From: Boswellia sacra
Lineage: Eukaryota > Streptophyta > Magnoliopsida > Sapindales > Burseraceae
NCBI GenBank assembly: GCA_013180625.2
Contig: SNVD02009150.1
Location: forward strand, 1 to 64,000
DNA length: 64,000 nt
Direction of reading: 5' to 3'
In this document: positions 5,111 to 64,000 of the stretch, in pieces
Position numbering within the stretch: the first letter of the stretch is position 1
Layout: each line of letters opens with the position of its first letter
Notes under the pieces: model-generated
Told to the model about the DNA's origin: nothing
What the model saw: the letters and a program-made list of their open reading frames with translations, nothing else
The model's database searches: none
Program-made: the position numbers and the translations under genes

Positions 5111-5333
5111 ATATCACATTCCTTGAATCAAACCTTGTACTTAAACTTTGATGCCTTTAACATGTAGTCTTCTCCTTAGCTTCAACACTTCATTTTAATA
5201 AGCCCCTTCTTGATTTTATAATTATTTAAATAATCTTATTCTTGCACATAAATAAATATATTAGTAAATCTCAATGAATCAATGTGTATTGTTATCATCA
5301 AAATTATCATATAGCCTTAGGGCTAACATCCAC

Positions 5334-20600: not shown

Positions 20601-20612
20601 ACCCCCAGCTAG
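20601..20612 (-). promoter_or_regulatory. polypurine tract of the Athila element
   Basis: The minus strand reads AGCTGGGGGT directly before the LTR start at 20600. This is the expected place for the plus-strand primer and fixes the LTR border. Confidence 0.75.
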
Positions 20613-21971
20613 CTTATTGCTACTTCTTAGCAAATAAAGCGTTATTATTTAGAAGTCATTTATAGAATTTTACATCCAATGTGGTCATTATTACACTCTC
20701 CTTGATTCTATCCAAATAAACAAACTCTAAACCGATTTTTTTCTCTCTTTTTTTTAAAGACTCATATGTCCTTCAGTCAAGATATTAACAAACATTCTTT
20801 TTGTGCTCAATTGACAGATGACTATGGGGCTTATTAGAAAGAAGCCATATCGGTTCTAGTATTTATTAAGGCTAACATCCTTAGGCAGGTGGGATTCATT
20901 CATCTTTATATATATATATTGAAACAATGCATCTTTAACCTATGTAGTGAGCCTTAGGCTAATGACTCCCAGACCAGTTGGCCTTAGGGCATTAGGTGTC
21001 AAGGCACCTCTACAAGCTTAACGACTCGAGTTGCCAATGCTTTATTTTTTATTAGAAACTTGTGGATAGTTGAATGTTCAATCCCATTAAGCTTTCTCTT
21101 TAATTCGTGTAATGAGCTTTGGGCCAATAGCTCCCAATCCAGTTGGTCTTAGGGCATTAGGTGTTGACGCACCCCTCGGCCTTAATTGCTCGAATTAAAG
21201 AGGCTACGAGCCCAAACTTATCCACAATTTTTTTTACTTTCACTTTTTTTTCTCTTTTTTCTTTTTCTTCTTCTTCTTCTTCTTTTTTTTTTTAACTTTC
21301 CCCTTCCTTTTGTTGTTATCCTAAACAAAACAAAAGAACTCAAATATTGCAACATTTCATTTTGTAACCCATAATCATGCATCAAAGTATGTGTGTGTGT
21401 GAAGAAAGGTTCATGAATACTTGCATAATGAGCACATGAGCAAATAGTTTATTAAATGATAAGGTTGTGGGAGTTCATAGATTTGAATAATTCAAAGTGA
21501 AGTGAATAAGACATCCTCGTTATAAAATCCAAAAATCATAACTAAATAATATCAGGTTAGCTAAAATGAGTCTTCAAAAGTGTAAAATCAAAACAAAATG
21601 ATAAATTGGTTAGAGTGTGTCTCTAGAGTTCAAAATGGCCCTCTTTACTCTATCATTCCTGACCCAGAATGCATCTCAAGAGGATTTAAACTCCCTACAC
21701 CACATTCTGAATCTAATTACTAACTCGTTTTTTTTTGTAATAAGAAAATATAAGACACACTTATGTCTACTATCCTTCTCCCCCCCAACCAAATGAAACA
21801 TTGCCCTCAATGTTTAAATGTAGAGAGATAAAGTATAAGAGACATTACTTGAAGCTTCAGTTATTCAAAAGAGATGACATGAAAGACACGTAAAATAAAA
21901 TGCTACAAATAAAAGAAAAATTACAAATGGAGATTTAGATCCAATTTGCACTTTTTGTTTTGTCCCCTTAA
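20613..21971 (-). other. 3' noncoding region of the Athila element
   Basis: No supportable gene. It holds pyrimidine tracts (21225-21300), a short repeat near 20935-21180 (AGGGCATTAGGTGT twice, with GAGCCTTAGGC-like flanks), a C-run CTCCCCCCCAACCA near 21778-21791 followed by ACATTGCCCTCAATGT, and segments near 21657-21700 and 21920-21960 that resemble the region beside the intact LOG frame (63300-63520). Confidence 0.6.
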
Positions 21972-22224
21972 CTAATTAATTTGAGTTATAGCTGGGTCAG
22001 GTTCATACTCGGCTGCTTGTAACTTGTTAAGTAATTCACTAGTGGTAGTGGCAGAAACAAGGATTTGTCGCACCGAATGAGGGATAAAATTCTGTTCTAC
22101 AGCTGCATCAACAAAACGTATCAAAGGATCAAAGAAATTTTTAACATTCAATAAACCTATGGGTTTTTGATGGAGATTTAGTTAGGTCCAAGAGCCAAAA
22201 TTCCTTCTAGAGTACCAAAGTCAC
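21972..22224 (-). pseudogene. LOG-like cytokinin riboside-monophosphate phosphoribohydrolase fragment
   Basis: The minus strand reads FGTLEG, then after a small indel SWT(stop)LNLHQKPIGLLNV, then NFFDPLIRFVDAAVEQNF, then RQILVSATTTSELLNKLQAA, ending in TAG at 21972-21974. It aligns along its length with the C-terminal half of the open LOG frame at 63548-64000. LOG enzymes release free-base cytokinin from its riboside monophosphate. The Pro-Gly of the PGGxGT motif is lost: the copy starts at the junction with integrase sequence (RCIPDNE, about 22225-22245). No intron interrupts about 80 codons. It lies in pol sense, between pol and the 3' LTR. Confidence 0.85.
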
Positions 22225-22990
22225 CTCATTGTCGGGTATGCATCTTTTAATTATTTGGTCTGGACAATATTTGAATAGATATGGGTCATTCCAATAAAAA
22301 TTTTTCACCTCGATCAAAAACTTCATTTTGTCTAGAGCATTCCAATGAGGTGGCATTTCTCATTTTGCAAGAAAATTTACAATGTTAGCAAACCAAGGTA
22401 CTGCCATAACGAAGAATAAAAATTCATCAGGAAAAGAGTCATTGATAGATGAAGTTTCAATTAATGTCTCTGTCGTTAATCTTGACAGATGAGCTGCAAT
22501 GATATTTTCAGCTCCTTTCTTATCCTTTATCGTGATGTTGAATTCTTGGAGCAATAAGATCCACCGTATCAATCTAGATTTTGCGTCCTGTTTAGACATT
22601 AAATATCTCACAGCTGTATGGTTAATGTAAACAATTGTTGTAGAACCAATTATATAAGATCAAAATTTGCCCAATGCAAATACTACTACAAGTAGTTCTT
22701 TTTCAGTTGTTGTGTAATTCATTTGTGCATTATTTAAAGTCCTACTTGCATAGTATATCACATAAGGTTACCTTCTTTTCTGTGTCCTAAGACAACACCA
22801 ATAACATAATCACTTGCATCACACATCAATTCAAAGGGCAAGGACCAATTAGGAGATTGCATAATTGGAGCAGTTGTTGAAAGTCCAATTAACTTATCAA
22901 AGGCATTTTGACATTCTTGAGTCCATTCAAAGAAGTGTCTTTTATTAAGAGGTTACAAAGAGGTTTAGATATAACACTGAAATTTCTTAT
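22225..22990 (-). pseudogene. Athila RNase H and start of integrase, truncated by fusion to LOG
   Basis: RNase H (minus strand) contains RYLMSKQDAKSRLIRWILLL, EFNITIKDKKGAENIIAAHL (about 22490-22610) and a decayed N-terminal half up to 22990. The frame continues through WNDPYLFKYCPDQII to RCIPDNE near 22230, the opening of Athila integrase before its zinc-binding domain, and then passes straight into LOG-like sequence. The zinc region, the DDE core and the C-terminus of integrase are absent, so a deletion or recombination joined integrase to LOG. Confidence 0.82.
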
Positions 22991-22999
22991 GAACCTCCT

Positions 23000-24215
23000 A
23001 TGATATCCGGCATACGCTAAGAATGAACGGACCTCTTTGACTGTTTTTGGTGGAGGGCGAAAATTAATTCCACTTTTGCTTTGTCCACTTCAATTCCCTT
23101 GGAAGACACCACATGACCTAAGACAATTCCCGAAGTAACCATATAATGACATTTTTCCCAATTCAAGATAAGACCTTTTTCTTCACACCGTTTTAGGACT
23201 TTTTCTAAGTTTTCAAGACAATTATCAAAAGAATTTCCAAAGACAGTTAAATCATCCATGAAAACTTCTAAACAATGCTCAATCATGTCACTAAAAATGC
23301 TCAATATGCATCGTTGAAAAGTAGCTGGAGCATTACAAAGTCCAAAAGGCATCCTTCTAAATGCAAAAGTGCCGAAGGAGCACGTGAATGTGGTCTTTTC
23401 TTGGTTTTCAAGTGCAATGAGAATTTGATAATAGCCTGAGTATACATCGAGAAAGCAGTAGTATGAGTGCCCTACTATTCTTTCTAGAATTTGATCAACG
23501 AATGGTAAGGGAAAATGGTCTTTTCTGGTGACAGCATTTAATTTTTTGTAATCAATGCACATCCTCCAACTAGATGAGACACGAGTTGTAATGATTCACC
23601 ATTTTCATTTTTGACTCCTGTAACGCCATATTTCTTAGGTACTAGTTGTGTAGGGCTTACCCACTTACTATCAAAAATAGGGTAGATAAGTCCCACATCA
23701 AGTAGTTTGAGAACTTTAGCCCTAATGACCTCTTTAATGTGGGGATTTAATCTCCTTTGAGGTTGTTGGGATGTTTTGACATTTTCTTATAAATGTATTC
23801 TATGTGTACAAATCAAAGGGTTAATACCTTTTATGTCTTTTAAAGTCCACCAGATTGCATTTTTATGCCTTTGAAGCACTTCTATCAACTTACCTTATTG
23901 CTCGCTTGTGAGGGATGAAGAAATTATCACTGGATATGTCTGATTCTCCTCAAGATATGCATATTTGAGTCCTTCAAGTAAGGGCTTCAGCTTTAACTTG
24001 GGCGCTTCCTCTTCTTTGCTTTCATTCATTTCCCCCAATTCTTTGAATCGTGGTTTTGAGCCTTTTTCCATCACCTGTGCACAATCCAGTAAAGAACATA
24101 TATCAGAAAGATCAGGCTCTAGTTCAATATTTGATTCTAATGAATTGACTAAACAAGTTTCCAAAGGGTCAGAAGAACTCCCTTTTTTGGATGTGGTCTT
24201 CCACAATAGTTTCAA
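23000..24215 (-). pseudogene. Athila reverse transcriptase, broken
   Basis: Upstream part: LKLKPLLEGLKYAYLEENQT (about 23940-24010) and IYPIFDSKWVSPTQLVPKK (about 23640-23700). Core at 23017-23562: CIDYKKLNAVTRKDHFPLPF, FLDVYSGYYQILIA, RRMPFGLCNAPATFQRC, and the catalytic box EVFMDDLTVFG with both aspartates kept. Frameshifts near 23562-23600 and 23760-23895 split it. The sequence style is diagnostic of the Athila clade. Confidence 0.9.
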
Positions 24216-24816
24216 TCATATTAGCCTCCTCAATTTCATCATCTTCTTCCTGTGGTTGTTTGCACATATTAAAAACGTTAAGTTCCAATGTCATGTTCTC
24301 GAATGATAGCTTCATGACTCCATTCCTGTAATTAATCAAAGCATTAGAGGCAGCTAGAAATGGACGCCCTAAAATGACAGGAATTGAATTACATACTTCC
24401 ACTAGTTGTGTATCCAAGATGATAAAATCCACTGGGTAAATGAATTTATCGACTTGAACTAACACATTTTCTACTACTCCTCTTGGCACTTTAATTGATC
24501 TATCAGTAAGCAAAAGAGTCACAAAAGTTGGTTTTAACTCACCTAGATTTAGTTTCTAAAATATCGAGTATGGAAGCAAATTTATACTAGCACCAAGATC
24601 AAGTAAAGCTTGTTCAATTTTACGGTCTCCAATAACACATGAAATTGTAGGACATCCTGGATCCTTATATTTGATTGTATTATTGTTTTGAAGAATAGCA
24701 CTTACTTGCTCGGCTAGAAAGGCCTTCTTTTTCACATTCAATTTTCTTTTCATAGTGCACAAATCTTTCAAAAATTTTGCATAAGAAGGTACCTGTTTGA
24801 TCACATCTAGCAACAA
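24169..24816 (-). pseudogene. Athila aspartic protease, broken
   Basis: The minus strand has QALLDLGASINLLPYSIF near 24560-24610, the Athila protease active-site region (DLGA in place of DTGA), followed after a stop at about 24550 by VPRGVVENVLVQVDKFIYPV and VILGRPFLAASNALI (24300-24500). Protease lies between gag and RT in the usual order. Confidence 0.88.
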
Positions 24817-24819
24817 AAT

Positions 24820-26476
24820 ATTGCCTTCACCTGTTTGAAAATTTCAAAAATTTCAGAAACGTGGGTTGGCTTCTTTTGTGTGGCTAATGCTTGAGGAAAT
24901 GGAGGCATAGGTGGGGATTTGATTCCTTCTTCGCTTGGTGTTGGTTTGGTAACCTATTCCTTATCCTTAGAGATGGATTTATCTTCTTTCTCATAAGGTT
25001 TAGGAATGTGTTTTTCCATAACCTTACCATTGCGGAGGGTCATGATTGATTTAGCTTGATCAATGTAATGACTGTTTGAGCTGCTCACACCTGAATTAGA
25101 TTTATCTTTGGGATTTTACAATATATGGGAAGGAAATTTTCCTTTTTCTTGGATGATAAATGTGGATGCAAATTTTGCAAGAGTGTTTGACAAATTTGCT
25201 AATGTTTGAGCAATTTGACTATTGAAAGTCTCTTGCTTTGTAATGAATGAATGTAATGTCTCTTCAAGGTCCTTCCTAGGAGGAGGAGCATATGTATGAT
25301 CATGAGAATTTTGAAAATTTTGATGTGTTTGAAAAGGGAATTGTGAAGATTGTGTATGATTGTCATTTTTTCAACTAAAATTTGGATGATTTCTCCAACC
25401 TGGATTGTAGGCTTGTGAGTATAGATTATCATTTGGCCTTTTGAAAGTGTTTAAGGCATTGGCTTGTCCATGGAGACATTCCCTAAAGGCATGCAAAGTT
25501 GGGCACTCATCAGTAGGATGGTCATTATCATTACAAATATGACAGACAATTTCGTGAATAGAATTCAATTGACCACTCTTTTTCATTTCTAAAGCCTCGA
25601 CTTTTCTAGCTAGGGATGCATATTTGGCTTCAAGGTCATGGTCTTCCCTAAGGTTGTAAATGCCTCTATTGGATGTCGAGGTTGGGGCTTTGCTTGGTGC
25701 ATCATAGGTGCCAGCAGTGTCCCAATTTTGGGCTTTGTCTACTAATGAATCTAGGTAGTCAATTGCTTCATCAGGGCCCTTATCTCCAAATTCTTCATTA
25801 CATATTAGCTCCACTAGTTGTCTATCTTGAGGTGTTAACCCTTCATAGAAGTGCGCAACTATTCTCCAAGTTTCAAAACCATGGTGAGGATAGGTATTAA
25901 GTAATTCTTTATACCTATCCCAACATTGGTAAAGGGTTTCTTTCTATTTTCGAGTGAAGGTGGTGATTTGTCTTTTAAGAGAATTTGTTCTATGGGTAGG
26001 AAAATTTTTTTTCAAAAATTGTTGTTTCATCTCATCCCATGAACTGATGGAACTTGACCTCAAATTTTGTAACCATGTTCTAGCTTTATCTTTTAAAGAA
26101 AAAGGAAAAAACTTTAATCTAATGGTGTTTATGCTACAATTTGGGTCACTGTAGGAGTTACACACCTATTCAAAATTTTTAAGTGTGAATATGGGTTCTC
26201 CATATCAAGGCCATGAAAGGTGGGTAGAATTCAAACAAAACTCGGTTTGAAATTGAAATGAATTGCATTGGGAGGAGAAATTACACAAGATGGTGCACTA
26301 GTCCTTACCGGATTCATGTAATCTCTGAGGGTTCTTGGTTGGTTTTGGTCATTTTGTTGGGAACAATTGTCCCCTTTATCTGTGAACCTTTCTACTAGAT
26401 TATCGGCCATGTTTTCTAAGGAAGATGATGTTTTCCTAACAAGTCTACCACTAGATGTGCGTGACCAAATTTTCAT
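24820..26476 (-). pseudogene. Athila gag and gag-protease linker, broken
   Basis: The N-terminus starts at 26476 (MKIWSRTSSGRLVRK), with RTLRDYMNPVRTSAPSCVIS and NAIHFNFKPSFV, typical of Athila gag. The central gag domain at 25944-26165 has CSINTIRLKFFPFSLKDKAR, TWLQNLRS and NFPTHRTNSLKRQITTFTRK. The C-terminal part at 25371-25814 has GPDEAIDYLDSLVDKAQNWD and a CHICNDNDHPTDEC knuckle. Stops near 26230, 25940 and 25370 separate the parts. 24820-25370 is the Lys/Glu-rich linker, heavily decayed. Confidence 0.88.
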
Positions 26477-26583
26477 GCAATTTCCAAAGAGAAAAGGAAA
26501 GAAAAGATGAGCACAGAAAGAAAAATTAAGATCTAAAAAAGAGAAAAAGGAATACTAACAATTTTGCACGCCAAATTTTACCT

Positions 26584-26600
26584 TCCCCGGCAATGTGCCA
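26584..26600 (-). promoter_or_regulatory. primer-binding site (tRNA-Asp type), mutated
   Basis: The minus strand reads TGGCACATTGCCGGGGA. Athila-clade elements use the 3' end of tRNA-Asp (TGGCGCCGTTGCCGGGG); the differences concentrate at former CpG positions. It lies six bases inside the LTR end at 26607. Confidence 0.75.
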
Positions 26601-26606
26601 AAAACT

Positions 26607-28150
26607 TGACACATCCAAAAATAGGATTACTCTCAAGTATAGGAGTGTCGAAGTAATAAATCCAGTGAGACTGGGGTCAATCCACGAGGAAGGGGAATTA
26701 GCGCTACAAACTAAAAGGTAAGTAAATATGATATGAATAATCAAGATGATATCAACGAATAGATGTAAAGATGGTAGGCGGTACTACCGACCATTCGAAT
26801 GTAAAACAAAAATAAAAGGTGGTAAGACCATCCGTGGAAATAGAAGGTAAAACCTACCATAGCAAATGAAATAACAATTTCATATGCAATAAATAAGAAT
26901 AATTAAAGTACAAAAGTAAGATAAATTAACACAATGGCAATGAAGGCTAAGGTTAGGGGATCCACCCTTGATATATCAAATAAGAATAAATAACCTATTT
27001 ATAACTCAATTGGAATTCACACATCAAGGAGGTTCCAATCGAAAGGTATATCATTTAAGTCCATTTTAGTTATATGAATTATATTTGTTTCATTACCAAT
27101 ATTTATACCACTTCTTGTAAATGGGTTCAAGTGTCTAGTGTGCCAACACCATATGTTTACAACAAATCAAGGTTTCTAACTAGACTTGTGTCGGTAAGGA
27201 AGAACCATACGACATCTAGAAAGGATCCAAGCATTTGATGTGCCAAAGATTGTCTACAATGGATCAAGACCTCCTCTTTACGAGTGGTGTCAAGATTGAT
27301 TAAGAAAATATATATAAATCATATAAAATAAATAACAAAAGATTATGATTATTAAGCACATATCAAAGGATTAGAAAATCCTTATTCTCATATCAAGGGT
27401 TTCGCCCTTTCACCTTAGCAAAAGATGATTTAGCAAGACATTATAAATGAAAGAAAACAAATTGCAAGAAAAAGAAGATTTATTAATAACATCAAGAGAA
27501 CAAACGCAAGATAGAAAACACAATAATAAGAGATCTCAGCCAAAGCTAAGATACCCTCATGGGTCACAAGTCACTTCTATTTATAGATACATTCAGGGGT
27601 AAACTTGTCAAATTACAAAGTGACAATTGTAAAATATCTTGTTGACAATTTGGATCATCGTATGCACCGACTTTGACCACCAATTTTGGCATCGAATTAT
27701 TTAGAATTTTTACCACATGTCTTCATGAAAGTTGTAGATATTTCTCTCAGCTTTCTAGTACATCTGGATTCATACAATTTGGATACGTATGTCAAGAGAT
27801 ATGGCCAAAATACGGAGGCATGGTCAAGGTGGGTTGAAACTGTAGATGGGTTCACTTCAAGCCCATTTTTGGTCGACTAAGAGCCCGAATTTGATGATGC
27901 TTGTGAAATATGATCTTATAGATAATTTAATCAGATTTCCAAAAAATTAAGATTTGCACCATTATGATTTATAAATAGAAAGTTATGACCATTTTACCAA
28001 TCATGCAATAAAAACTGAAATTAAGATAAATCTAATTCAAAAGATGCAAAGACTACAAATATGCTTAAATTGAGGAATTTAATGACACTATTAATGCAAT
28101 ATGATGAACTAAGCTCTTCTTGAACATCCATATTTAATTGTTCATCAACA
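26607..28150 (-). repeat. 5' LTR of the Athila element
   Basis: 1544 bp, TGTTGATGAAC start (28150) and GGATGTGTCA end (26607) on the minus strand. It aligns with 17716-17811 plus 19217-20600. The uninterrupted target of solo LTR copy A is seen near 26767-26775. Confidence 0.85.
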
Positions 28151-31157: not shown

Positions 31158-32568
31158 TGATGTGTTCGAAACTAGCAAGTATACTAGTCGCACAAGTAAT
31201 AAAGTGATAAGTAAGATATCGTTCCCACGAGGATTGATTCTAATTGAATTTGTTATTTCCAACAACAATAAACTAAACAGGGGGGAATTTTTGTTGAATG
31301 CTTTACTAAATGAAATAAGAATGCAAGTAAAGAATAACAAAACAGAAAGTAAATTTGAATGAAAAATCAATGGGGGAAAGCTGGTTAAGGGATCCTTCTC
31401 TACCACAAGATATGGATTTGCGAATTAATTGTAGAATTGTCATCTAATTACAGCATTGAAGTTATCAACCGTAGATAATAACAAGCTCTATTACCCCAAT
31501 CTTTCCTTACTTGGTTGTTAAATAAAACAAGCTCTTTATTTAATCTCTATCCATTAAACAACCTAGAACAAGCTCTCTGAGTTTAATTCAATGGATCCAT
31601 TATGATAAGAAAGATAGGTTGATCTAAGCAATAAACACACAAGCTCGGATTATTTAACTTAGGTTATATTCTCCAAATGTAATCTCTGATCACAATTTTG
31701 CTACTAATGATTAGAAATTCAAGACAATTACGGATCAAGATTTCTAGTCTAGCAATAGACAACAACCAGATTATATTCAGTTGGCCATTCAAAATACAAT
31801 CAGTAAGCAATCATAAGCATTAGATATGGGAAAATACAAGCAACTTCAATTAGAGAATTGGAAAACAACTTCTTGCACAATCAACTCACAAAAACCATAC
31901 AGGGGCTTTGAAATCACCCTCAACCAATTCAGATTCAGTTACACATGTTTAAGAACGTGGTAAATACAATACACATGGAGACATTCCAGAAAATGAAAGG
32001 GAAGGGAAAAACTTAGCAAATTTGATGTAATTCTCTTTGGATTGTAGTTCTTCCTCTTTCCAAGCTTCCTTTCTCCTTCAAAAACTCCAAGAGATGAAAG
32101 AATTCCAGAGCTGCAGCCTCCACCACGTTCTCCCCTCTTCAAGTTATCAAAATAAAACCCTAAAAATGTGTTTAAATACTCTGCTACAGTGACTTGCTAC
32201 AGTGCCCCGTATTATACATGCTACAGTGCTTGTGGAATTATATTTCTATACATCTCACACTGTTTTGATTACAACTTCTGGTACACTGAATGGATTTATA
32301 AACCGTAAATTTCTCCAGAAAATAGACTTCGAGAGCTTTCCAACGGTATATAACATGTCGTCGGATTCATTGTATATCAAACAATTAAATCCGAGAAGAT
32401 CACTGACTAGCAGAGGTGAAAATGAAGGGTTTTACTCCATTTTTGTGCAAGTTGCTCCAAAACTCCTACAAACATCAAAACCACACAAAAACATAAAAAT
32501 ACCAAGGAATATAGCAAAGAAACATGGACGAATTTATATAAAAGTAATACATAAATAGACACCTATCA
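31158..32568 (-). repeat. solo LTR, copy B of the LOG-carrier LTR family
   Basis: 1411 bp, the same termini as copies A and C (TGATAGGTGTC start on the minus strand at 32568, ACATCA end at 31158). A perfect 5-bp target duplication GTCAA flanks it (31153-31157 and 32569-32573). No internal coding region, so it is a product of LTR-LTR recombination. Confidence 0.95.
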
Positions 32569-32804: not shown

Positions 32805-34705
32805 TGTTAGCCCTAAGGCTACATGATAATTTTGATGATAACAATACACATTGATTAATTGAGATTTACTAACATGTTTATTTATGTGCAAGAGTAAGAT
32901 TATTGAAATAATTGTAAAATCAAGAAGAGGCTTATTAAAATGAAGTGTTGAAGCTAAGGAGAAGACTACATGTTAAAGGCACAAAAGTTTAAGAACAAGG
33001 ATTGACTCAAGGAATGTGACACATGAGCAATATTCAATCAATTGGTCATATATATCTCTACAAATATCCAAATGATGTAATTTTTGAGCCTTTGGAAAGC
33101 TTAATCAATTTATAACATTTCATATGTTTTAATGAAATTCAAATTTCAAGTGCAATGTTGTCCAAATCATCATGCAAGTTGAAAGATAAATGGAAGCAGC
33201 TGACATGAGCACCGAATACTCTTTTAGACATATCTTGAGCTAGAAAAATCAAAATGACTTGATTCTTATGGCATTGGAAAGAGGACTTAATGAAGCACAT
33301 TTCATATGTTTTAAAGAAATTCAAATTTTAAATGGAAGGCCAACATAATTGACTTGCAATTCGGTGGACTGACACAGAGAAGAAAAATCAACTCACTTGA
33401 GCACTGAATGATGTTTTGTCCATATCTTGAGTTAGAGATGTCCAAATGACTTGATTCTTATGGCATTGGAAAGATGATTCAATGGAGCAGATTTCATAGT
33501 CTTTGAAGAAATTAAAATTTTAAACAGAAGGCCGACATAATGCACATGCAAATTGGTGGACTGACACATGGAAGAAAAATCAAGTCACATGAGCACTGAA
33601 TGGTGTTTTGGCCATATCTTGATCTACAGATATCCAAAGGACTTGGTTCTTGATGCCTTGGAAAGCTTATTCAAATGTGCAGATATTTTATGTTTTTCAG
33701 ATTTTCAAATTTCAAACGTAACATTGACAAAAATGTCAAACAAAATTACAATTTTTATGGTGGGCAGAAACTTTGGAGTTGGTGTCTTCACTTGACTAAG
33801 TTCATCCCATTTGCCTATAAAAGGAGCCCTTCTCCCATGCATTCAAGAAAAGCAAGACAAGAATTTTATCAAGCAAAAAATAAGAGAAATATCAAGTCTA
33901 GAGAGCTTTTATATTCTTTATCTACTCTTTGAAGAGAGTTGTACTTTTATTGTAAAAATTTTCTTTGTATTGTGGTGAGAGTGAGATCTACTTGTAAAGG
34001 ATAAAAGTTATCCTTGAGAGAACTCTTTCCTTAGTGAGGTTGTTCATCAAGAAGAACTCTTGGTGTGGTGTTATCAAGGGTTGAAGAAAGTTGCCTTGGT
34101 GAGGTTGTTCATCAAGAAGAACTCTTGGTGTGTGTTATCAAGAGTTGAGGAAAGTTGCCTTGGTGAGGTTGTTCATCAAGAAGAACTCTTGGTGTGGTGT
34201 TATCAAGGGTTGAAGGAAGTTGCCTTGGTGAGGTTGTTCATCAAGAAGAACTCTTGGTGTGGTGTTATCAAGAGTTGAAGAAGTTGCCTTGGTGAGGTTG
34301 TTCATCAAGAAGAACTCTTGGTGTGGTGTTATCAAGGGTTGAATGAAAAAGTCTTGGTGAGGTTGTTCATCAAGCAAGTTGTAAAGATTTCTACAACTTA
34401 GTGGAAAGCTTAGCTCGTGGAGCTAGGAGCCCGTGGACGTAGGCAAGGTTTGCCGAACCACGTACATCGAGTTTGCACTCTCTCTATCCCTATCCTCTCT
34501 ACATTTATTTGCACTTGTGATTGCTCATTATTGTTATTATTCTTTTGATTGCATCTTTGAGAAATTCTAATTTCATCTTCTTCACCTTTATTCTCAAAGA
34601 AAGAGTGAACTAATTTTGATCTTTCAAGAAAGGTTTTCTAAATCCGTTTTGATAAATAAAAACCCAATTCACCCCCCCTCTCGGGTTGCCATACCTAGGT
34701 CAACA
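32805..34705 (+). repeat. solo SIRE-type LTR, plus orientation
   Basis: 1901 bp from TGTTAGCC to GGTCAACA, with a perfect 5-bp duplication AGAGG (32800-32804 and 34706-34710). It is the same family as the LTR at 3543-5328 but opposite in orientation, and longer mainly because of the expanded 64-bp array at 34030-34375. A plus-strand TATA-like site (CCTATAAAAGG near 33813-33823) precedes the array and fits the expected promoter position. Confidence 0.95.
34025..34378 (+). repeat. ~64-bp tandem array inside the solo SIRE LTR
   Basis: Five to six copies of a unit with GGTGAGGTTGTTCATCAAG, AAGAACTCTTGGTGTG and TTATCAAGGGTTGA, at about 64-bp spacing. The 5' LTR of the element at 3543-5328 has only about two copies (about 4000-4100). 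Small reading frames across the array repeat with it and are not genes. Confidence 0.9.
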
Positions 34706-38535: not shown

Positions 38536-39045
38536 TGTCACGAGCTTAGAAGTTGCGCAGCACGCTCGTGCGGCACTTAGGCAACTCGAACCCAAAAGTT
38601 GCTAAGTAAGCCTTGATTGTTGGCTTGCTTCGCTTGGGAAGAAGCTTGAGAGGCTAGGATCGTTGAGCTTAAGAGCTTTACGGCAAAGAGAAGAGAAGTG
38701 TTGGAAGGTTACGAACAAGTTTTGCTAGGAAAGAAGGCTTTTGTATTGCTTGAGAACTCTTTACAAAGGCTTGTGTTTTCAATGCTTTACAATTGAGCCT
38801 TGGAGGGGTATTTATAGTGAACCACCTCCTCAATGGACGGCCGAGATTTAATACATTCGACGGCCGTAATTCGTTCTCTAGACTTTTCTACAAAAGAATC
38901 TAGATATTTACATGGAGGCTTCTTAAAATATCCAAGATATTTATAAAGGAAGCTTGCTAGAGATTTCTAGAAAATGGGCTTGGACTTGCCAAGCCTTGGC
39001 GCAATTTTGGGCCACTCTAGCAAGCAATTTGGGCGGGCCGTAACA
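38536..39045 (-). repeat. 3' LTR of the chromovirus
   Basis: TGTTACGG start (39045) and GCTCGTGACA end (38536) on the minus strand; 510 bp, alignable without gaps to 43726-44235. Minus-strand TATA-like ACTATAAATACC near 38810-38822. Confidence 0.95.
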
Positions 39046-39058
39046 TCCTCCCCCACCT
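39046..39058 (-). promoter_or_regulatory. polypurine tract of the chromovirus
   Basis: The minus strand reads AGGTGGGGGAGGA directly before the LTR start TGTTACGG. It marks the 3' end of the internal region. Confidence 0.85.
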
Positions 39059-40440
39059 ATTTTCGCGACGTCCTCGGCGAGCTTTCCTCCTTGTAGCGTT
39101 GGATGTGCTCGCCAAATTGCCACAAGGTGTCTTCACGTTCCCAACTTGCTTCGCTGTCTGGGAGGTCCTTCCACTTCACTAGGTATTCAACATATGGTGG
39201 AACTCATCTCCTTCGTATCACTTGATCCGCAAGGATGCACTCCACGTCCTTGTCGAATGCGGTGACGACAGCTGTTGGCGCTCTCTTGGACTCGCTCCTG
39301 CTTCGATCTTCCTTGTCTTCATGGTATGGCTTGAGGAAGCTAACATGGAAGACCGGGTGGATCTTGAGGTTAGGGGGTAGTCAAACTTGGTAGGAGACTT
39401 TGCCCACTCGCTTGATGATTGGGAAGGGGCCTTCGTATTTCCTTACCAACCCCTTGTGCACCTTACGCAAAGACTTGAATTGTTGGGGTAGAAGCTTCAC
39501 AAGCACCAAGTCCCCTTCTTGAAATGTGAGGTGCCGTCTCCTTGTGTCCGCCCATTTCTTCATTCGTTTGGCGGCCTTGTCCAAGCATACTCTAGTAATA
39601 TCGGCTTGTTCATGCCATTCCTTCGCAAGCTTGTAGGCCGCTAGACTTTTCCCTCCGTATATTGAGGCTATGGCATTTGGTGTCATAGGTTGTCGTCCGG
39701 TTACAATCTCGAATGGACTTTTGCCGGTAGCCTCACTTCGTTGGAGGTTATACGAGAATTGGGCAACATCAAGCAACTTTGCCCAATCATGCTGATGAGC
39801 GCTCACGTAATGCCTCAAGTATAGCTCAAGTAAGGCATTGGTGCGCTCGGTTTGCCCGTCAGTTTGGGGGTGGAAGCTTGTTGAGATGCTCAAGTCGGTC
39901 CCCAATAGCTTGAAGAGCTCTCTCCAAAAACGACCGGTGAAGCGAGGGTCTCGATCACTTACAATGTTTTGTGGAACTCCCCATAGTTTCACTACATGCT
40001 TGAGGAACGCTCGAGCAGCTTCATCCGCAATGCAATCCGCAGAGACGGGTATGAAGGTGGCGTATTTGCTAAATCGATCAACCACCACCATGATGCTTCC
40101 ATATCCCTCAGACTTTGGCAAGGCCACGATGAAATCCATTGATGCACTTTGCCATGGCCTCTCCGCTATAGATAGGGGTTCTAGCAACCCCGCCGGGTGT
40201 TGATGCTCAACTTTATCTTATTGGCATACTAGGCACGTCCTCACATAGCTCTCCACATCTTCCCGCATTTGGGACCAATAGTAGGAATCTTGCACGAGTG
40301 CAAGGGTTTGCACCATACCTGGGTGTCCAGCCCACTTGGAGTCATGGCACTCCTTGATGATCTCTTTTCGCAAGCTCCCATGTCTTGGCACAAACAAGCG
40401 GTTGCCCGTTGTGAGGAGTAGGCCTTCATCAAGCCAAAAG
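39059..40440 (-). pseudogene. chromovirus integrase and chromodomain, broken
   Basis: Minus strand. Zinc region near 40235-40370 (ECHDSKWAGHPG, then CLVCQ followed by a TAA). Core 39381-40187: [57 protein letters not shown], with the DDE residues in place. C-terminal GPFPIIKRVGKVSYQV, a TGA, then HPVFHVSFLKPY. After a further TGA comes the chromodomain VEYLVKWKDLPDSEASWERE near 39125-39190, a histone-mark reader that would direct integration to heterochromatin. Three stops make it non-functional. Confidence 0.92.
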
Positions 40441-42005
40441 CGCCTTGTTTTTCCCTAACTTGCCAATTGTAGGAGGTTCTTGGCTATGGGATTGTGCTCT
40501 AGGCCTTGTTTGATGCGGTCGATGATTACACTTTGTGGTCGACTCACGCTCAAAGTGGCGAGTTTCGCTTTGCGACTTAGGGCATCGGCCACAATATTTG
40601 CCTTTCCCGCTTTTTTACTCGAGCTTACAGTCGAACTCGGCCAAGAAATCTTGCCATCAAGCTTGCTTGGGGCTTAGCTTCTTTTGTGTTTGAAAGTAGC
40701 TCATTGCCACATTGTCAGTCTTAATGACAAAGTGCGAGCCAAGCAAGTAGTGACGCCAAACCCGTAGACAATGGATGATGGCCGTCATTTCTTTCTCTTA
40801 GACTGTGTATCGTTTCTCTGTGTCATTTAGCTTGCGGCTCTCGTATACAATGGGGTGCCCTTCTTGCATGAGAACTCCCCCTATGGCATAGTCGGAGGTG
40901 TCCATGTGCATCTCGAACGGCTTTGTATGGTCGGGCAACACCAACATCGGTTCTTCGGATATGGCCTTCTTTAATTCTTCGAAGGCATGTTGGCATTTTT
41001 CAGTCCAATGCCATGTGTTGTTCTTTTTAAGTAGATCCGTGAGTGGGGCGGCCTTGGTGGAGTAGCTTTTGATAAACCGCCGATAGTAGTTCACCAACCC
41101 AAGAAAAGACAGTAGCTCCGGAACTTTTGTGGGAGGCTCACATTCTTGGATGGCCTTCATCTTTGCTGGATCCATCATTAGTTTCCCATCCCGTATTCGG
41201 TGGCCGAGGAACTCTACTTCTCTTTGAGCAAAAGAGCATTTTTCTTTCTTGACGTAGAGTTCATGCTTCCGAAGTACTTGGAATACTTGCTTAAGATGTT
41301 GCACATGTTCTTCAAGAGTGGCACTATATACCACTATATCATCCAAGTACACCACAACAATTGATCGAGATAGGGATGGAATAACTTATTCATAAGAGTG
41401 CAAAACGTAGCGGGTGCATTGGTGAGGCCGAATGGCATAACTAGAAATTCAAAGGCACCGTACCTTGTAACGCACGCCGTCTTTGGTTCGTCACCCTTGG
41501 CAATGCGAACTTGATAGTACCCCGATCTCAAATCGAGCTTTGTGAAGCAGCGAGCCTTCCCAAGTTGATCAAATAACTCCGCAATTAGAGGAATCGGGTA
41601 CTTGTTCTTGATGGTGATCTTGTTAAGCGCCCGATAGTCAATGCACATGTGGAGAGATCCATCATTCTTCTTTTGGAAGAGGACGGGAGCACCATATGGA
41701 GTTTTTGAGGGTTGGATATAGCCCGCATCAAGTAGATCTTGGAGTTGCCTTTTCAATTCCGTAAGCTCGGGTGGCGCCATGTGGTAAGGCGCCATAGATG
41801 AGGGTTTGGCACCGGGCTCCAACTCAATTTGATGGTCTACTTCTTGACGTGGTGGCAATTTCTTTGGGAGTTCTTGGGGCTTGACGTCCTTATATTTCTC
41901 AAGGACGGCTTGGACCTCTTTTGGTGTTGGATCCTTGGCAATGGTGACATCTTCCCCATCGTTCAATTCTCGAACTGTGGCAAGGAAGCTTGGATCCTTC
42001 TTCAA
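40441..42005 (-). pseudogene. chromovirus reverse transcriptase and RNase H, frameshifted
   Basis: RT N-terminal part 41334-42005: [56 protein letters not shown] one-base loss in a T run just before the catalytic box (about 41350-41360) shifts the frame; YLDDIVVYS continues in the next frame (40798-41355) with both aspartates intact. RNase H follows (FLGLVNYYRRFIKSYS, PILVYESRKLNDTEKRY-like), then decays at 40450-40800. Confidence 0.92.
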
Positions 42006-42017
42006 TCCCCGCTTGAA

Positions 42018-42884
42018 TTATAACGCGGATAGCATTTTGCTCTCGACCTTGGCTACACGTTCCGCCATGACCGTGCACGAGTGACTCCCATCAAGGATGC
42101 TGAGGGAGTTAGAGGCGGGTATGGGGAAAGCATGGACTTGGTCGAAGAACTCCATACCCAACACTACTTGAAAGTCGTCCATGGGGACGATGGAGAAGTC
42201 GAGGTTTCCCTTCCATGCACCAATTTGTACCGAGGTGGCCTTAGATACCCCCACTATTGCCTTAGCGGGTGAGTTCACCGCCTTGATGGTGCCTCCTCCG
42301 TTGTTGTACTTGAGGCCTAAACGTTTGGCCTCTTCAATAGAAACAAAGTTGTGCGTGGCTCCCGTGTCAAGCATCGCTCGCACATTCTTTCCATTGATAG
42401 TGGCGCTTATATACATGAGACCCTTCTTGGCATATGTGGGTCTCTTAAGGGCGCCAATGGTGCGGAGAGAACCCATCTCCGCTTGTGGCTCATCACCACG
42501 TGAGCCCTCATGTTGAGCCGCTAATCCATTAAGGGTATTTCTCTTTGGGCAATCTTTCACCCAATGAGGACCGTCACAAATGAAACAAGGGCTCTTAGGT
42601 TTAGGGGCGTCGGACTTACCTTTACTAGGCTTGTCGCGCTTGTCCCCTCCGGAAGACTTCTGTGCACCACCTTCCTTTCGACCATGGTCCTTCTTGGTGC
42701 TCCTCTCTCCCCCACCTTTGCCATGACTGACCTTCCTATCCTTGGATTGGGAAGCATAATCCGTGAGGGACTCCGCTGCGGTTATGGCTTCGTCGAGGTT
42801 TTGCACGCCACGCCTTTCGAGCTCAACTCTTGCCCAATCCTTGAGCCCATCAAGGAAGTAGAAGAGAGAGTCCTTGTCAGACAT
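42018..42884 (-). pseudogene. chromovirus gag C-terminus and protease
   Basis: A single open stretch of 288 codons holds the gag knuckle CFICDGPHWVKDCPKR (about 42540-42590) and the aspartic protease VRAMLDTGATHNFVSIEEAK (about 42310-42370) with DTG intact, followed by FSIVPMDDFQVVLGMEFFDQ. A TAA at about 42018 separates it from RT. Confidence 0.9.
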
Positions 42885-43689
42885 ATCCTCGATCTTAAGG
42901 ATGATGGTGGTAAAATCCTTGATATATTCACGAATAGTGCCACTTTGCTTTAGACAACGGAGGCGGCCCCTTGCCTCCTTTTCAGCATTGCTTGGGGAGA
43001 AATGCTTCTGAAGCTCCCTTTTAAAGTCCTCCCATGTGCGGAGGTTGACGATGCCTTTGCCGTGTCGCCATGCTTACGATGCCACCATAGTTGGGCTGCA
43101 TCTCGTAAGAATGTGGGTGCAATGCCTATTCTTGATGCGTCATCGTGGACACCCTTGGCCTGAAAGTATTGCTCAAGGCCGAATAAGAAGTTCTCGACCT
43201 CGGTGGCATTGCGGGTGCCGTGGTATGTAGCGGGTGTAGGCACTTGCATGGTGTTGAGTGTGCTAGCACTTGTATAGGATGGACTAGCTCGGTCGTAACG
43301 ATGCCTCTCCCATTCCATGCGAACTTCCTCCACTTCCGCACGAACAGCCCGTAATTCGTGCTCCACAAAGGTGCCCAAGCCATGGAGTTCTCGTGTAAGG
43401 TTTTGTAGCTCCTCCTTGTCGGACTTGCTATACTCGAGAATGCTGGACTTTGTGGCTTGAGTAATCTCCCCATAGTCCGTCTCTAGGCCATCAAGACAGT
43501 CGGTGAGACTCTCAATCACATTGTCCATCCTCGAGATGGCTTGTTCTATGCTAGCAACACGAGGCTCCAAGGCTTCCACGGGTGCAGCTTTAGACTTGCC
43601 ACGTTTGCCTTGGGGGCGTGGTGGTGGCTGAGGTTGCTCCTCACGTCGCGTACTTGCTCTTCCATCGTCACTTCAATTTCGGATGCCAT
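42885..43689 (-). pseudogene. chromovirus gag N-terminal part, broken
   Basis: The likely start is at 43689 (MASEIEV), 21 bases from the primer-binding site, with a frame change near 43660. 42950-43579 contains MEALEPRVASIEQAISRMDN, a coiled-coil region, then TYHGTRNATEVENFLFGLEQ, YFQAKG and DAAQLWWHRKHGD, which are gag-domain features. Frameshifts near 43040 and 42950 break it. Confidence 0.85.
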
Positions 43690-43709
43690 GTCACTCTAGT
43701 GCTCGAACC

Positions 43710-43723
43710 TGGCTCTGATACCA
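43710..43723 (-). promoter_or_regulatory. primer-binding site (initiator tRNA-Met)
   Basis: The minus strand reads TGGTATCAGAGCCA two bases inside the LTR at 43726, a full match to the initiator tRNA-Met complement used by chromoviruses. Confidence 0.95.
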
Positions 43724-43725
43724 AC

Positions 43726-44235
43726 TGTCACGAGCTTAGAAGTTGTGCAGCACGCTCGTGCGGCACTTAGGCAACTCGAACCCAAAAGTTGTTAAGTAAG
43801 CCTTGATTGTTGGCTTGCTTCGCTTGGGAAGAAGCTTGAGAGGCTAGGATCGTTGAGCTTAAGAGCTTTACGGCAAAGAGAAGAGAAGTGTTGGAAGGTT
43901 AGGAACAAGTGTTGCTAGGAAAGAAGGCTTTTGTATTGCTTGAGAACTCTTTACAAAGGCTTGTGTTTTCGATGCTTTACAATTGAGCCTTGGAGGGGTA
44001 TTTATAGTGAACCACCTCCTCAATGGACGGTCGAGATTTAATACATCCGACGATCATAATTCGTTCTCTAGACTTTTTTACAAAAGAATCTAGATATTTA
44101 CATGGAGGCTTCTTAAAATATCCAAGATATTTACAAAGGAAGCTTGCTAGAGATTTCTAGAAAATGGGCTTGGACTTGCCAAGCCTTGGCGCAATTTTGG
44201 GCCAGTCTAGCAAGCAATTTGGGCGGACCGTAACA
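43726..44235 (-). repeat. 5' LTR of the chromovirus
   Basis: 510 bp, same ends as the left LTR. The differences are mostly C/T and G/A, several in a GGCCGT/GATCAT block near 44050-44056. Confidence 0.95.
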
Positions 44236-58588: not shown

Positions 58589-59482
58589 TAGGGGTGTTCA
58601 AAATTACCCGACCCGATCAGGTTTTATCGGGTTTATCGGGTTACGAGCGGGTTAATGTAATAAAAAACCCGAAATCGGGTTATAAACTTCAGGTTTTTTG
58701 CAATCGGGTTTGGGATCGGGTTTAATTTATGTAACCCGACATGTAAGTGTCGAGTAGATAGTGTCTAGTGTCGAATGATGCATCCGACACTCGATGTCTT
58801 GGAAAATAGTCTGATATCGAGTGTCGGTTGTGAATCCAACATGACTCGACATGTAAGTCTCGAGCGTCGAGTGTCGGATGCATCATCTGACATTCGATGT
58901 CTTTGAAAATAGTCTGATATCGAGTGTCGGTTGTGAATCTCGACACAACTCGACATGTAAGTATCAAGTGGCTAATGTCGAGTGTTAGATGCATCATCCG
59001 ACACTCGATGTTTTCAAAAATAGATTGATATCGAGTATCGGTTGTGAATCCGACACGACTCGACATGTAAGTGTCGAGTGTCGAGTGGATAGTGTCGAGT
59101 GTCAGATGCACCATCCGACACTCGATGTCTTAAAAAATGGTCTGATATCGAGTGTCGGTTATGAATCTGAAATGACTCGACATGTAAGTGTCGAGTGTCG
59201 AGTGGATTGTGTCGAGTGTTGGATGCATCATCTGACACTCGATGTCTTCAAAAATAGACTGATATTGAGTATCGGTTGTGAATCCGACATGACTCGACAC
59301 TTACATGTCGAGTGTCGAGTGGACCCGACAGACCCGACCAACCCGACCATTCGGGTTATATCTCAGGTTACATGCTTCAGAAACCCGATTACGGGTTTAA
59401 AATGTCTAACCCTATCATGTATTGGGTTTTGTTGGGTTGGGCAAAACCCAACCCGACCCGACCCCACCTGTGTGCACCCCTA
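58589..59482. mobile_element. hAT-like non-autonomous element filled with TCGACAC satellite units
   Basis: Ends TAGGGGTG and CACCCCTA with ACCCGACCCG inside both. Flanking 8-mers CCAACAGT (58581-58588) and CTAATAGT (59483-59490) match at six of eight positions, both differences being C to T; 8 bp is the hAT target-duplication length. The interior has about five units of roughly 118 bp with CGAGTGTCGGATGCATCATC, CGACACTCGATGTCTT and GATATCGAGTGTCGGTTGTG, plus TCGACATGTAAGTGTCGAGT palindromic parts. No transposase. A truncated relative is at 10796-11345. Confidence 0.7.
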
Positions 59483-60081: not shown

Positions 60082-61492
60082 TGATGCGTTCGAAACTAGC
60101 AAGTATACTAGTCGCACAAGTAATAAAGTGATAAGCAAGATATCGTTCCCACGAGGATTGATTCTAATTGAATTTGTTATTTCCAGCAACAATAAACTAA
60201 ACAGGGGGGGATTTTTGTTGAATGCTTTACTAAATGAAATAAGAATGCAAGTAAAGAATAACAAAACAGAAAGTAAATTTGAATGAAAAATCAATGGGAG
60301 AAAGCTGGTTAAGGGATCCTTCTCTACCACAAGATATGGATTTGCGAATTAATTGTAGAATTGTCATCTAATTACAGCATTGAAGTTATCAACCGTAGAT
60401 AATAACAAGCTCTATTACCCCAATCTTTCCTTACTTTGTTGTTAAATAAAACAAGCTCTTTATTTAATCTCTATCCATTAAACAACCTAGAACAAGCTCT
60501 CTAGTTTAATTCAATGGATGCATTATGATAAGAAAGATAGGTTGATCTAAGCAATAAACACACAAGCTCGGATTATTTAACTTAGGTTATATTCTCCAAT
60601 TGTAATCTCTGATCACAATTTTGCTACTAATGATTAGAAATTCAAGACAATTACGGATCAAGATTTCTAGTCTAGCAATAAATCACAACCAGATTATATT
60701 CAGTTGGCCACTCAAATACAATCAGCAAGCAATCATAAGCATTAAATATGGGAGAATACAAACAACTTCAATTAGAGAATTGGATAACAATTCCTTACAC
60801 AATCAACTTACAAAAACCATATCAGGGGCTTTGAAATCACCCTCAACCAATTCAGATTCAGTTACACATGTTTAAGAACGTGGTAAATACAATACAACAT
60901 GGAGACATTCCAGAAAATGAAAGGGAAGGGAAAAACTTAGCAAATTTGATGTAATTCTCTTTGGATTGTAGTTCTTCCTCTTTCCAAGCTTCCTTTCTCC
61001 TTCAAGAACTCCAAGAGATGAAAGAATTCCAGAGCTGCAGCCTCCACCACGTTCTCCCCTCTTCAAGTTATGAAAATAAAACCCTAAAATGTGTTTAAAT
61101 ACTCTGCTACAGTGACTTGCTACAGTGCCCCGTATTATACATGCTACAGTGCTTGTGGAATTATATTTCTATACATCTCACACTGTTTTGATTACAACTT
61201 TTGGTACACTGAATGGATTTATAAACCGTAAATTTCTCCAGAAAATAGACTTCGAGAGCTTTCCAACGGTATATAATATGTCATCGGGTTCATTGTATAT
61301 CAATACAATTAAATCCGAGAAGATGGTTGACTAGTAGAGGTGAAAATGAAGGGTTTTACTCCATTTTTGTGCAAGTTGCTCCAAAACTCCTACAAACATC
61401 AAAACCACACAAAAACATAAAAATACCAAGGAATATAGCAAAGAAACATGGACGAATTGATATAAAAGTAATACATAAATAGACACCTATCA
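60082..61492 (-). repeat. 3' LTR of the LOG-carrying element (copy C)
   Basis: 1411 bp; TGATAGGTGTC start at 61492 and ACGCATCA end at 60082 on the minus strand. It is highly similar by eye to the solo LTRs at 17812-19216 and 31158-32568. All three have CACTGTAGCA three times within about 50 bp (here 61105-61151), just upstream of a pyrimidine-rich region in element sense. A small conserved frame across this segment exists in all three copies but is explained by recent common origin. Confidence 0.93.
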
Positions 61493-61508
61493 AATTCCCC
61501 CACACTTA
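61493..61508 (-). promoter_or_regulatory. polypurine tract of the LOG-carrying element
   Basis: The minus strand reads TAAGTGTGGGGGAATT, immediately before the LTR start TGATAGGTG. It proves that 60082-61492 is a 3' LTR and that the internal region lies to its right. Confidence 0.85.
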
Positions 61509-63547
61509 GACTTTGCTAGTCCTCGAGCAACTAAAATGATACGAAACAAAACTAAACCGAAACAGAATCAGAGAAAAATTAAAACACACAATGCTTCAAC
61601 TTGTAAATAGGCCTCAAAGATTGTACTTAATTATAACCCAAGGAAAACTTCAAAATAATGCACTTGATCAAGAATTTTATCTCAAAGATTAGTTTCGCTT
61701 CACTTCAATTCCTCAAGTGTGTGTGTGTAGAGCCATTCTCACCTAATCACTTGTAACCCGGATGAGTTTATGCATAAAAATGAATCATATTTAATATTGA
61801 AGATGTGTGTATAAATGAACTCCATAGGCCTGCTTTTCAAGTCACTCTCCACTAATGTAGACATGCACAACACCAAGGATCAAGTAGGACTTTATTAAGC
61901 TTGTAACGTTTGGCTTGGGTGAAGGTATGATAAAGGATAATAATTTGGCTCAAATCACCCACAAACACATAAATCATTCAAGACTATGTAGAGCTCAACC
62001 CTATAACACAACTTCATTTCAATTCACCAGGTTACTCCCCCAAACTTATTTAGAACACTCAATCTTTTTTTTTTTTTTTGCAGAAAACAAAAGAAAACTA
62101 CACCCCCACACTTTGTTGTTTCATTCTTTTTAAGAACACTTAAGGGTATAGATCTCTTATTCTTCTTCTTTTGTTCTTCTTTTTTTTCTTTTTTTCTTTT
62201 TTTTCTTTTTTTTTTTATTACACTTCCCCTCCCCCACACTTAAACAACACATTGTCCTCAATGTGTAAGTACGTGGACGATAAGTACAGATTGGCTTTTT
62301 TTTTTCTTTTTTCTTTTTTTTTCAAACACAATAGAACTCACTTGCATTGCTCATGACACATCCCAACCTCCTCTAACTTCCCAAAACCAGAACATAGCTC
62401 AGAATTTAATTGTGAATGATCTACATGCTCATAGGTAAGGGATAAACTGTTTGGAACAAATTCATTTGAGGTTAGGAAATCTTTTAGTGAGTTAACAAAG
62501 AAAAAGGCTTACAAAGGCTCAAAGGGGTAACTAGGGATCAATTTCAGTCAAGGTTGGCTATTAAGGCTCAAACGGTCCAAAGATGGCCTAAATCATTTCC
62601 CCAATGTTGCACAGTCTAGGATTTCGCCTCGAGTGACCATCAAACAAGTTCTAGAATTCATCGAAATCTGAAGAAACATTTAAATTACATAAACTTTCTC
62701 TAAGTGAACAAATAACTCAGTGATAATAGCTCAGTGCTCAATGTTGCGCAAGGAATCAAAAGCAAAGCGAAAACCAATAAACATTTCAAGCACACAGATC
62801 CATGCATCATTTATCATTTTCCAGGAGTTATTCTTAATTCAATCATTATCTTATCATCGACCCACAAAATGCAAGAAAAGAGGTACGTGGCGTTGTTACA
62901 CCTGAGTCAAGATTGTATATTTCAACAATCCTTAGGACCAGTAGCCCGCAGACTTAAGGTTTCCAGCCTATATACCTTTATTATGAAAGAACAAAACAAG
63001 AAACAAGACACTTCAAACAACATGAAATAAACAAACTACAGATTTATGTCGAGAGAATGCGTTTCAAGGGTTAAAGAAAACCCCATATTCTGCCATTCTC
63101 AGGTTTTTCCACAATTGTTTTTTTTTTAAATCGAAACTGATAAAGATAAAAACACATAACAACTCTAAATTACGCAAAACTAAACTTACTCATAAAATAA
63201 CAAAGTTCAACAAGTCAGCAAACAAAAACAAGTTAGTTAGAATGGGTCTAAAAAGTTTAGAAGTTAGCCTCCTTATTCAGCCATTATGGATTGAAGAGAT
63301 CCAGAATGCGTTTCAAGAGAACTTGAACTTTTTAAGCCACCACTCTAAAAACCGAGATTAGAAAATATTACCTGGGACGAAAGAAATAACCTGAAAAAGC
63401 TCAAAAGAAATAACATGAAAAATCTCAAATAAACACAATAAAAAGAAAGCAAACAAAAACGAAGCAAACCAGCAAATAGAGATTACAGATGGAGCGTTAA
63501 ATCCAGTTTACGCCTCTTATTGCCTTCTCCAAACCAATCTATCCGAG
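61509..63547 (-). other. 3' noncoding region of the LOG-carrying element
   Basis: About 2 kb without a gene. It has a second polypurine-like site at 62225-62242 (minus strand TAAGTGTGGGGGAGGGGA) next to ACATTGTCCTCAATGT, T-rich tracts (62065-62085, 62160-62225, 62290-62335), and segments 63296-63360 and 63480-63530 that resemble the region beside the LOG fragment of the Athila element. Confidence 0.65.
62225..62242 (-). promoter_or_regulatory. second, internal polypurine-like tract
   Basis: The minus strand reads TAAGTGTGGGGGAGGGGA, sharing TAAGTGTGGGGGA with the LTR-adjacent tract at 61493-61508, some 730 bp away. A comparable C-run followed by ACATTG.CCTCAATGT is at 21778-21815 in the Athila element. 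Confidence 0.6.
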
Positions 63548-64000
63548 CTATTGTGGATCAGGCGAATAGACGAATGCTTGTAATTTGTCAATTAACTCCC
63601 CTGCAGTTGAAGCTGTAACCAGGATTTGCCTCGCCGACTGTGAGATGAAGTTTTTTTCTACTGCTTGATCAAGAAAAGACAACAAACCATCAAAAAAATT
63701 ATTGACATTTAACAAACCAATGGGTTTCCGATGGATGTTTAGCTGTGCCCAAGAGGTGATTTGAAATATCTCCTCTAATGTACCATAACCACCGGGCAAA
63801 GCTATAAATGCATCAGATTTAATGACCATATGTGCAATACGCTCATGCATACTAGAAACCTGTAACTCTTCCCCCATGGTGTTGCCTACGATATCTCGTA
63901 CAGCTAATGGTTTAGGGATAATGCCGAGAACTTTGCTCCCTCCCAAGGATGCAGCTGTCGACACACACCCCATTAACCCAAGACTACCCCCTTCATAAAT
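63548..64000 (-). CDS. LOG: LOG-family cytokinin riboside 5'-monophosphate phosphoribohydrolase, partial, in a retrotransposon
   Basis: Minus strand, open for 150 codons from the right window edge to TAG at 63548-63550; the N-terminus is off-window because the frame is already open upstream of the Met at 63973. Residues in order: YEGGSLGLMG (end of the nucleotide-binding glycine region), SSMHERIAHM with the conserved Arg, DAFIALPGGYGTLEEIFQIT with the PGGxGTxxE signature and its Glu, SWAQLNIHRKPIGLLNV, then a helical C-terminus ending SPDPQ. Plant LOG proteins are about 210-230 residues and convert cytokinin nucleotides directly to active free bases in the cytosol and nucleus. Plant LOG genes normally have several introns; none is seen here. 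It lies in element sense between the expected pol and the 3' LTR. Whether it is expressed or active is not shown by sequence alone. Confidence 0.88.
   Translation of the reverse strand: MYEGGSLGLMGCVSTAASLGGSKVLGIIPKPLAVRDIVGNTMGEELQVSSMHERIAHMVIKSDAFIALPGGYGTLEEIFQITSWAQLNIHRKPIGLLNVNNFFDGLLSFLDQAVEKNFISQSARQILVTASTAGELIDKLQAFVYSPDPQ

Follow-up and report, generated by a model that had tools for sequence, protein, structure and literature searches.

The window analysed here, a stretch of 64,000 nucleotides of Boswellia sacra DNA, ends inside an open frame of the LOG family that lies upstream of a long terminal repeat (LTR) on the same strand. The locus raises two questions: (i) whether the LOG frame is a host gene that happens to adjoin an LTR, or is cargo of a retrotransposon; and (ii) what such a cargo would do. 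To the first we give a confident answer. The LOG is very probably cargo of a Gypsy-type element, carried between pol and the 3′ LTR, the focal copy being visible only up to position 64000. The answer to the second is graded, and is built up below.

The minus-strand LOG frame of 150 codons named in the original prediction is present. It matches PF03641 Lysine_decarbox (Pfam, E 2.6e-39), contains the PGGxGTxxE motif and aligns without gaps to the Arabidopsis LOG3 structure 2a33 (173 bits) over 143 residues, corresponding to LOG3 residues 49-191; this stretch therefore contains no introns. The gene had been called open and intronless, and the absence of introns holds for the aligned stretch, but the frame is not whole: its start lies beyond 64000, and a frameshift near 63557-63548 shifts the last ~24 conserved residues out of frame. 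The focal LOG also has Glu at a position that is Gly in 145 of the 155 proteins of its clade (described below) with a letter there and in 122 of 122 host LOGs, and the copy may therefore be decaying. It is damaged, with a tail-less protein as its probable product at most.

The LTR with a polypurine tract (PPT) that had been placed some 2 kb from LOG was likewise recovered, and two further LTR copies of the same family, here family A, lie elsewhere in the window (Table 1). Both are solo LTRs, 97% identical to the focal LTR and 95% to each other in a self-comparison of the window. Unlike these duplication-flanked copies, the focal LTR has a PPT-like run upstream of it, and is therefore assigned as a 3′ LTR. 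With its 3′ LTR, its PPT and LTR copies elsewhere, the focal copy has the features of an LTR retrotransposon in the part that lies in the window (60082-64000).

Table 1. Positions in the window of the features of the two LOG-bearing elements and of the related solo LTRs.
Feature	Positions	Strand	Evidence or remark
Focal element (family A)
LOG-family frame, 150 codons	63548-64000	minus	Pfam, structure alignment; 5′ end beyond 64000
Conserved LOG tail (basic stretch and LxLxL)	63486-63557	minus	tblastn with P0003, P0129, P0122; in another frame
Non-coding stretch, LOG to 3′ LTR	61493-63547	minus	2055 bases
PPT-like run directly before LTR, ending GTGTGGGGGAATT	61493-61505	minus	
3′ LTR	60082-61492	minus	window self-comparison
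Related copies (family A)
Solo LTR	31158-32568	minus	5-base target duplication TTGAC
Solo LTR	17812-19216	minus	target duplication CATCT; inside 3′ LTR of second element
Second element (family B)
5′ LTR	26680-28145	minus	part aligning to 3′ LTR; true end perhaps ~26607 (by eye)
Primer-binding-site-like sequence	26585-26600	minus	presumed from motif
gag piece	25944-26165	minus	PF03732, E 2.5e-12
Reverse transcriptase	23017-23595	minus	PF00078, E 2.3e-29
RNase H pieces (span 22360-22952)	22758-22952; 22360-22659	minus	PF17919; PF17917
Integrase-start-like stretch	22210-22329	minus	presumed from motif; without Pfam match
LOG remnant	21933-22202	minus	PF03641, E 2.2e-10 for a 69-residue open piece
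3′ LTR, first part	19217-20596	minus	
3′ LTR, rest	17718-17811	minus	beyond nested solo LTR

A second element in the same window, decayed, occupies 17718-28145 and carries gag, reverse transcriptase, RNase H, a LOG remnant and a 3′ LTR, all on one strand; its two LTRs (91% identical over their main part), gag, reverse transcriptase and RNase H identify it as an LTR retrotransposon. The LOG remnant was found with eight of nine relatives used as tblastn queries against the window, at 49-61% identity for seven of them and at 32% for P0124, a query that is itself partly deleted. A deletion apparently joined the remnant to the stretch that we take to be the start of an integrase, for which Pfam gave no integrase match. 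The LTRs of families A and B did not match each other in the window self-comparison (E 1e-10, matches >60 bases), and we therefore conclude that this window contains two separate element families with LOG in front of the 3′ LTR. The region between LOG and LTR in the focal element has short motifs in common with the corresponding stretch of the second (40 and 32 bases, E 6.5e-4 each, the best matches outside an A-rich run); these matches are weak, because their order differs.

By its motifs we take the focal element to be Athila-like, and the presumed likeness extends to the slot between pol and the 3′ LTR, the strand, and the type of LTR and PPT; the slot holds LOG in the window, whereas it holds an env-like gene in Athila. 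Between 22360 and 22329 of the second element, the latter being the presumed integrase start, there is no room for an archaeal-type RNase H. According to passages of PMC6317226, such a domain between RNase H and integrase marks Ogre and Retand. The Athila ORF-1 domain PF03078, which the same passages report in 16% of Athila elements, was unmatched in the eight pieces scanned, which cover part of the second element.

Sequences related to the focal LOG are widespread. A protein search gave 2557 matches, of which the best 120 were listed. Clusters of Reevesia pubescens accounted for 45 of these 120, with 18 chromosome numbers and 210 member sequences, a sum of hand-copied counts whose members may not all share one source. 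Diplodiscus, Melia, Rhamnella and Populus are also among the best 120 of the 2557, and a further search added Xanthoceras and Acer. Several listed relatives are fragments, and three Xanthoceras proteins (P0224, P0225, P0227) contain two LOG units or parts each, perhaps fused neighbouring copies. One search of viral contigs found no relative, and another gave 27 loci at 23-44% identity.

In a few of the relatives the gene model itself extends beyond LOG. Three from Rhamnella (P0112, P0124 and P0129) begin with a common N-terminal stretch, presumably the end of an integrase, and continue into LOG; in these three, Pfam recognized nothing but LOG, and no integrase. Compared with the window, the integrase-like start of P0124 gave a 16-residue match at 5871-5824 (E 0.004), the others being at E of at least 2.9. 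Acer P0228 and Rhamnella P0131 have another coding stretch in common upstream of LOG, 50% identical between them (residues 1-134 of P0228 corresponding to 33-178 of P0131). This stretch gave no Pfam match under E 0.1 and only two PDB matches touching it, at chance level (E 0.33 and 0.89). An integrase-like or common upstream stretch occurs in just these 5 of 292 proteins, and because context is known for those five only, the element origin of the other clade members is inferred from their place in the clade.

These observations bear on the possibility that a host LOG gene, or a processed LOG copy, merely lies beside an LTR. Such an arrangement would be compatible with a window that stops at 64000, inside the LOG frame. 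It is contradicted by the second element, which repeats the arrangement within this window, by the Rhamnella and Acer models with element-type, non-LOG sequence upstream of LOG, and by the separation of the clade from host LOGs (below). We regard it as very improbable and, given the second element and these gene models, have set it aside. The cargo reading of the original prediction is thus upheld, because a second element with gag, reverse transcriptase and RNase H has LOG in the same slot and on the same strand, and because gene models in two other genera join element-type sequence to LOG.

Three trees were built, and the LOG remnant of the second element is in none of them. The first contains 108 hand-picked rows (107 of 223 proteins, and the window LOG) and separates 67 derived-type rows (SH-aLRT 97), 37 host rows (100) and 4 basal-type rows (90); P0074 of Populus trichocarpa falls in the same clade as the window LOG. 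For the second tree, 12 of the 292 proteins were omitted beforehand (six odd models or fragments by name, and six shorter than 160 residues), and 88% thinning left 103 of 281 rows, in which 72 clade rows stand against 31 host rows with SH-aLRT 100. The third, a FastTree of 295 rows (292 proteins, the window LOG and two LOGs of Arabidopsis) with Arabidopsis LOG8 as its root, gives a clade of 169 proteins and the window LOG that does not include Arabidopsis LOG3, with a FastTree support of only 60. Judging by the names of the nearest host proteins, the captured LOG was presumably LOG7/LOG3-like. A recent capture of LOG was rejected because of the diversity within this clade; capture of a spliced LOG, as originally proposed, is kept as the explanation, and a recent single event is not.

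The residues of the active site distinguish most of this clade from host LOGs. Passages of PMC4979012 propose Arg99 and Glu122 as the catalytic pair of CgLOG, and list Met96, Lys100 and Glu121 at its adenine site and Met96, His97, Lys100, Glu125 and Trp129 at its prenyl site. In CgLOG numbering, the window LOG keeps Arg99 and Glu122, and has Ile for Lys100 and Gln for Glu125. Both Lys100 and Glu125 are kept in 19 of the 169 clade proteins, including those named Xanthoceras and Acer. We call the other 150 derived, a class defined by not keeping both residues rather than by the tree. Among the derived proteins Lys100 is kept in 2 and lost in 148, and Glu125 is kept in 1, replaced in 148 and gapped in 1; Arg99 is present in 141, Glu122 in 142 and His97 in 90. 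P0080 and P0238, the latter an Acer fragment, keep Lys without Glu. All 123 host LOGs have Arg99, Lys100, Glu122 and Glu125.

The clade also differs at its C-terminus. An EAR-type LxLxL stretch lies within the last nine residues of 117 of the 150 derived proteins, of 1 of the 19 that keep both pocket residues and of none of the 123 hosts; it is absent from 33 derived proteins and from 18 of the 19, and is out of frame in the window copy. In the 117 derived proteins with [DN]W in the last 25 residues, LxLxL is found in 99 and a K/R pair before the end in 108. In the second tree the earliest branches lead to members that keep Lys as well as Glu, and one of these, P0236, is already tailed, which suggests that the tail came first and the pocket change later, an order that we infer from this early branch.

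How the cargo acts may be considered in light of these residues. The most direct scenario is that it is a plain cytokinin-activating LOG, which would provide more free cytokinin, and more cell division, wherever the element is at work. The PGGxGTxxE motif is indeed kept, as are both catalytic residues, Arg and Glu, and the 19 clade proteins with an intact pocket pair would fit; the altered Lys and Glu positions in 148 each of the other 150, at sites assigned by PMC4979012 in the passages cited, do not, nor does a focal copy that lacks both. The gene had been predicted to be a cytokinin-activating LOG: its family membership stands, and activation is doubtful because the pocket Lys and Glu are replaced in the focal copy and in most of the clade. 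We consider it unlikely that the cargo is such a plain LOG, and equally doubtful that it would activate cytokinin in the manner of plant LOGs. We lean slightly toward the view that hydrolysis of a nucleotide of some kind is retained.

Comparison of the two window LOGs provides evidence on selection. In the 63 ungapped codons compared between focal LOG and remnant, dN is 0.217 and dS 1.173 (NG86), a dN/dS of ~0.18; the corresponding values are dN 0.203 and dS 0.801 by LWL85, and dN 0.192 and dS 1.502 by YN00. Bootstrapping of the NG86 ratio gave 0.07-0.41, with no value of 1 or more (474 of 500 replicates usable), and third positions hold 28 of the 53 differences (binomial p 0.003). The ratio is low despite decay of the remnant, which would push it toward 1. 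That the two LOGs diverged after capture rests on their common tail and slot. A dN/dS among copies had been suggested as a check in the original prediction, and these two copies supply one.

This ratio is pertinent to the scenario in which the captured LOG is a passenger, riding along without function for the element. Damage to both window copies, and the fragmentary state of several listed relatives, are what a passenger would show; a dN/dS of 0.18 between those same copies is not, and full-length relatives with the catalytic pair and the tail occur in several named plant genera. We think a passenger improbable. The cargo resembles an ancient, modified LOG maintained by natural selection more than a recent unaltered copy, and it probably serves the element in some way.

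The focal sequence is very probably the 3′-terminal part of an LTR retrotransposon of the Ty3/gypsy type. Its lineage presumably captured a spliced host LOG long ago, the source being LOG7/LOG3-like, and has carried it since between pol and the 3′ LTR. A possible mechanism is as follows. The cargo gene would be read off the element transcript, and its product would be a LOG-fold dimer that splits a nucleoside 5′-monophosphate, with a preference for a base other than the prenyl-adenine of cytokinin precursors. The tail, with its basic stretch and LxLxL, would direct the protein to the nucleus and dock TOPLESS-type co-repressors, and so aid the element in the host cell. In short, the lineage may have made a host hormone enzyme into its nuclear accessory protein, with the catalytic pair kept, the pocket rebuilt and a basic, LxLxL-type TOPLESS dock added. 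We put this mechanism forward tentatively; the whole of it, including a nuclear, co-repressor-docking tail, has well under an even chance of being right, less than its separate parts on service to the element and hydrolysis. If it is true, the element could target either some modified nucleotide or the transcription and silencing of its host.

The tail itself could be read otherwise. A leucine pattern of the LxLxL type also fits nuclear export signals, and the tail may be such a signal, or simply a structural end, rather than a co-repressor dock. We give this alternative real weight, somewhat short of an even chance. The basic stretch that precedes the leucines and their position at the extreme C-terminus point away from it, and the tail fits the LxLxL type that is linked to TOPLESS in passages of PMC10942257.

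Elements of this general kind are known. The original prediction held that no such retrotransposon had been described; this was mistaken, for a passage of a 2022 survey (PMC9289625) reports Gypsy consensus sequences with a YgdH (LOG) domain from Citrus sinensis and C. clementina and, without filter, also from Populus trichocarpa, and calls the result in line with Steinbauerova 2011. The Citrus and Populus elements resemble those of the window in being plant Gypsy LTR elements with a domain of the LOG family; the report is a short passage that covers neither the residues and tail of the LOG nor its phylogeny or selection. The same survey describes an AlkB-type RNA demethylase in Gypsy elements of orchids, where a Gypsy lineage has likewise retained an enzyme taken from its host; these differ in the enzyme, and in that activity was shown in vitro. 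Compared with plant LOGs such as AtLOG3 (2a33), the window LOG has family membership by sequence, PGGxGTxxE and the catalytic Arg and Glu in common, and differs in its pocket (Lys to Ile, Glu to Gln), in being carried by an element and in having relatives with a basic and LxLxL tail. The main texts of PMC11963269 and PMC7264820 do not contain ‘cytokinin’, ‘lysine decarboxylase’ or ‘YgdH’, and PMC6317226 does not contain ‘lysine decarboxylase’. Among the papers listed, judged by title and abstract opening, none concerned the pocket or tail of element LOGs. The kind of element is thus known, and the separate clade, the pocket change, the tail and the selection on element LOGs are possibly new.

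In the portions of the literature examined, elements with a LOG domain had been noted and not explained. With a pocket change in most of the clade, an added tail and a low dN/dS, they provide a case in which it can be tested whether a retroelement has reshaped a hormone enzyme of its host to its own ends. There is also a practical implication. Some LOG-type proteins in databases, such as LOGL10 of Populus and the Rhamnella ones, probably belong to elements, and their context should be checked before they are counted as cytokinin genes; LOG family counts in genomes like that of Reevesia pubescens are probably inflated by element copies.

Finally, we note other repeats in the window. An apparently complete Gypsy-type element lies at 38536-44235, with LTRs at 38536-39045 and 43726-44235 that are 97% identical and, between them, frames that by eye resemble gag and pol. 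Degenerate repeats occur at 58734-59323, 10836-11329, 4394-5086 and 33058-33738, and two pairs of repeats are in inverted sense, 10836-11329 with 58734-59323 and 4007-5328 with 32805-34116.
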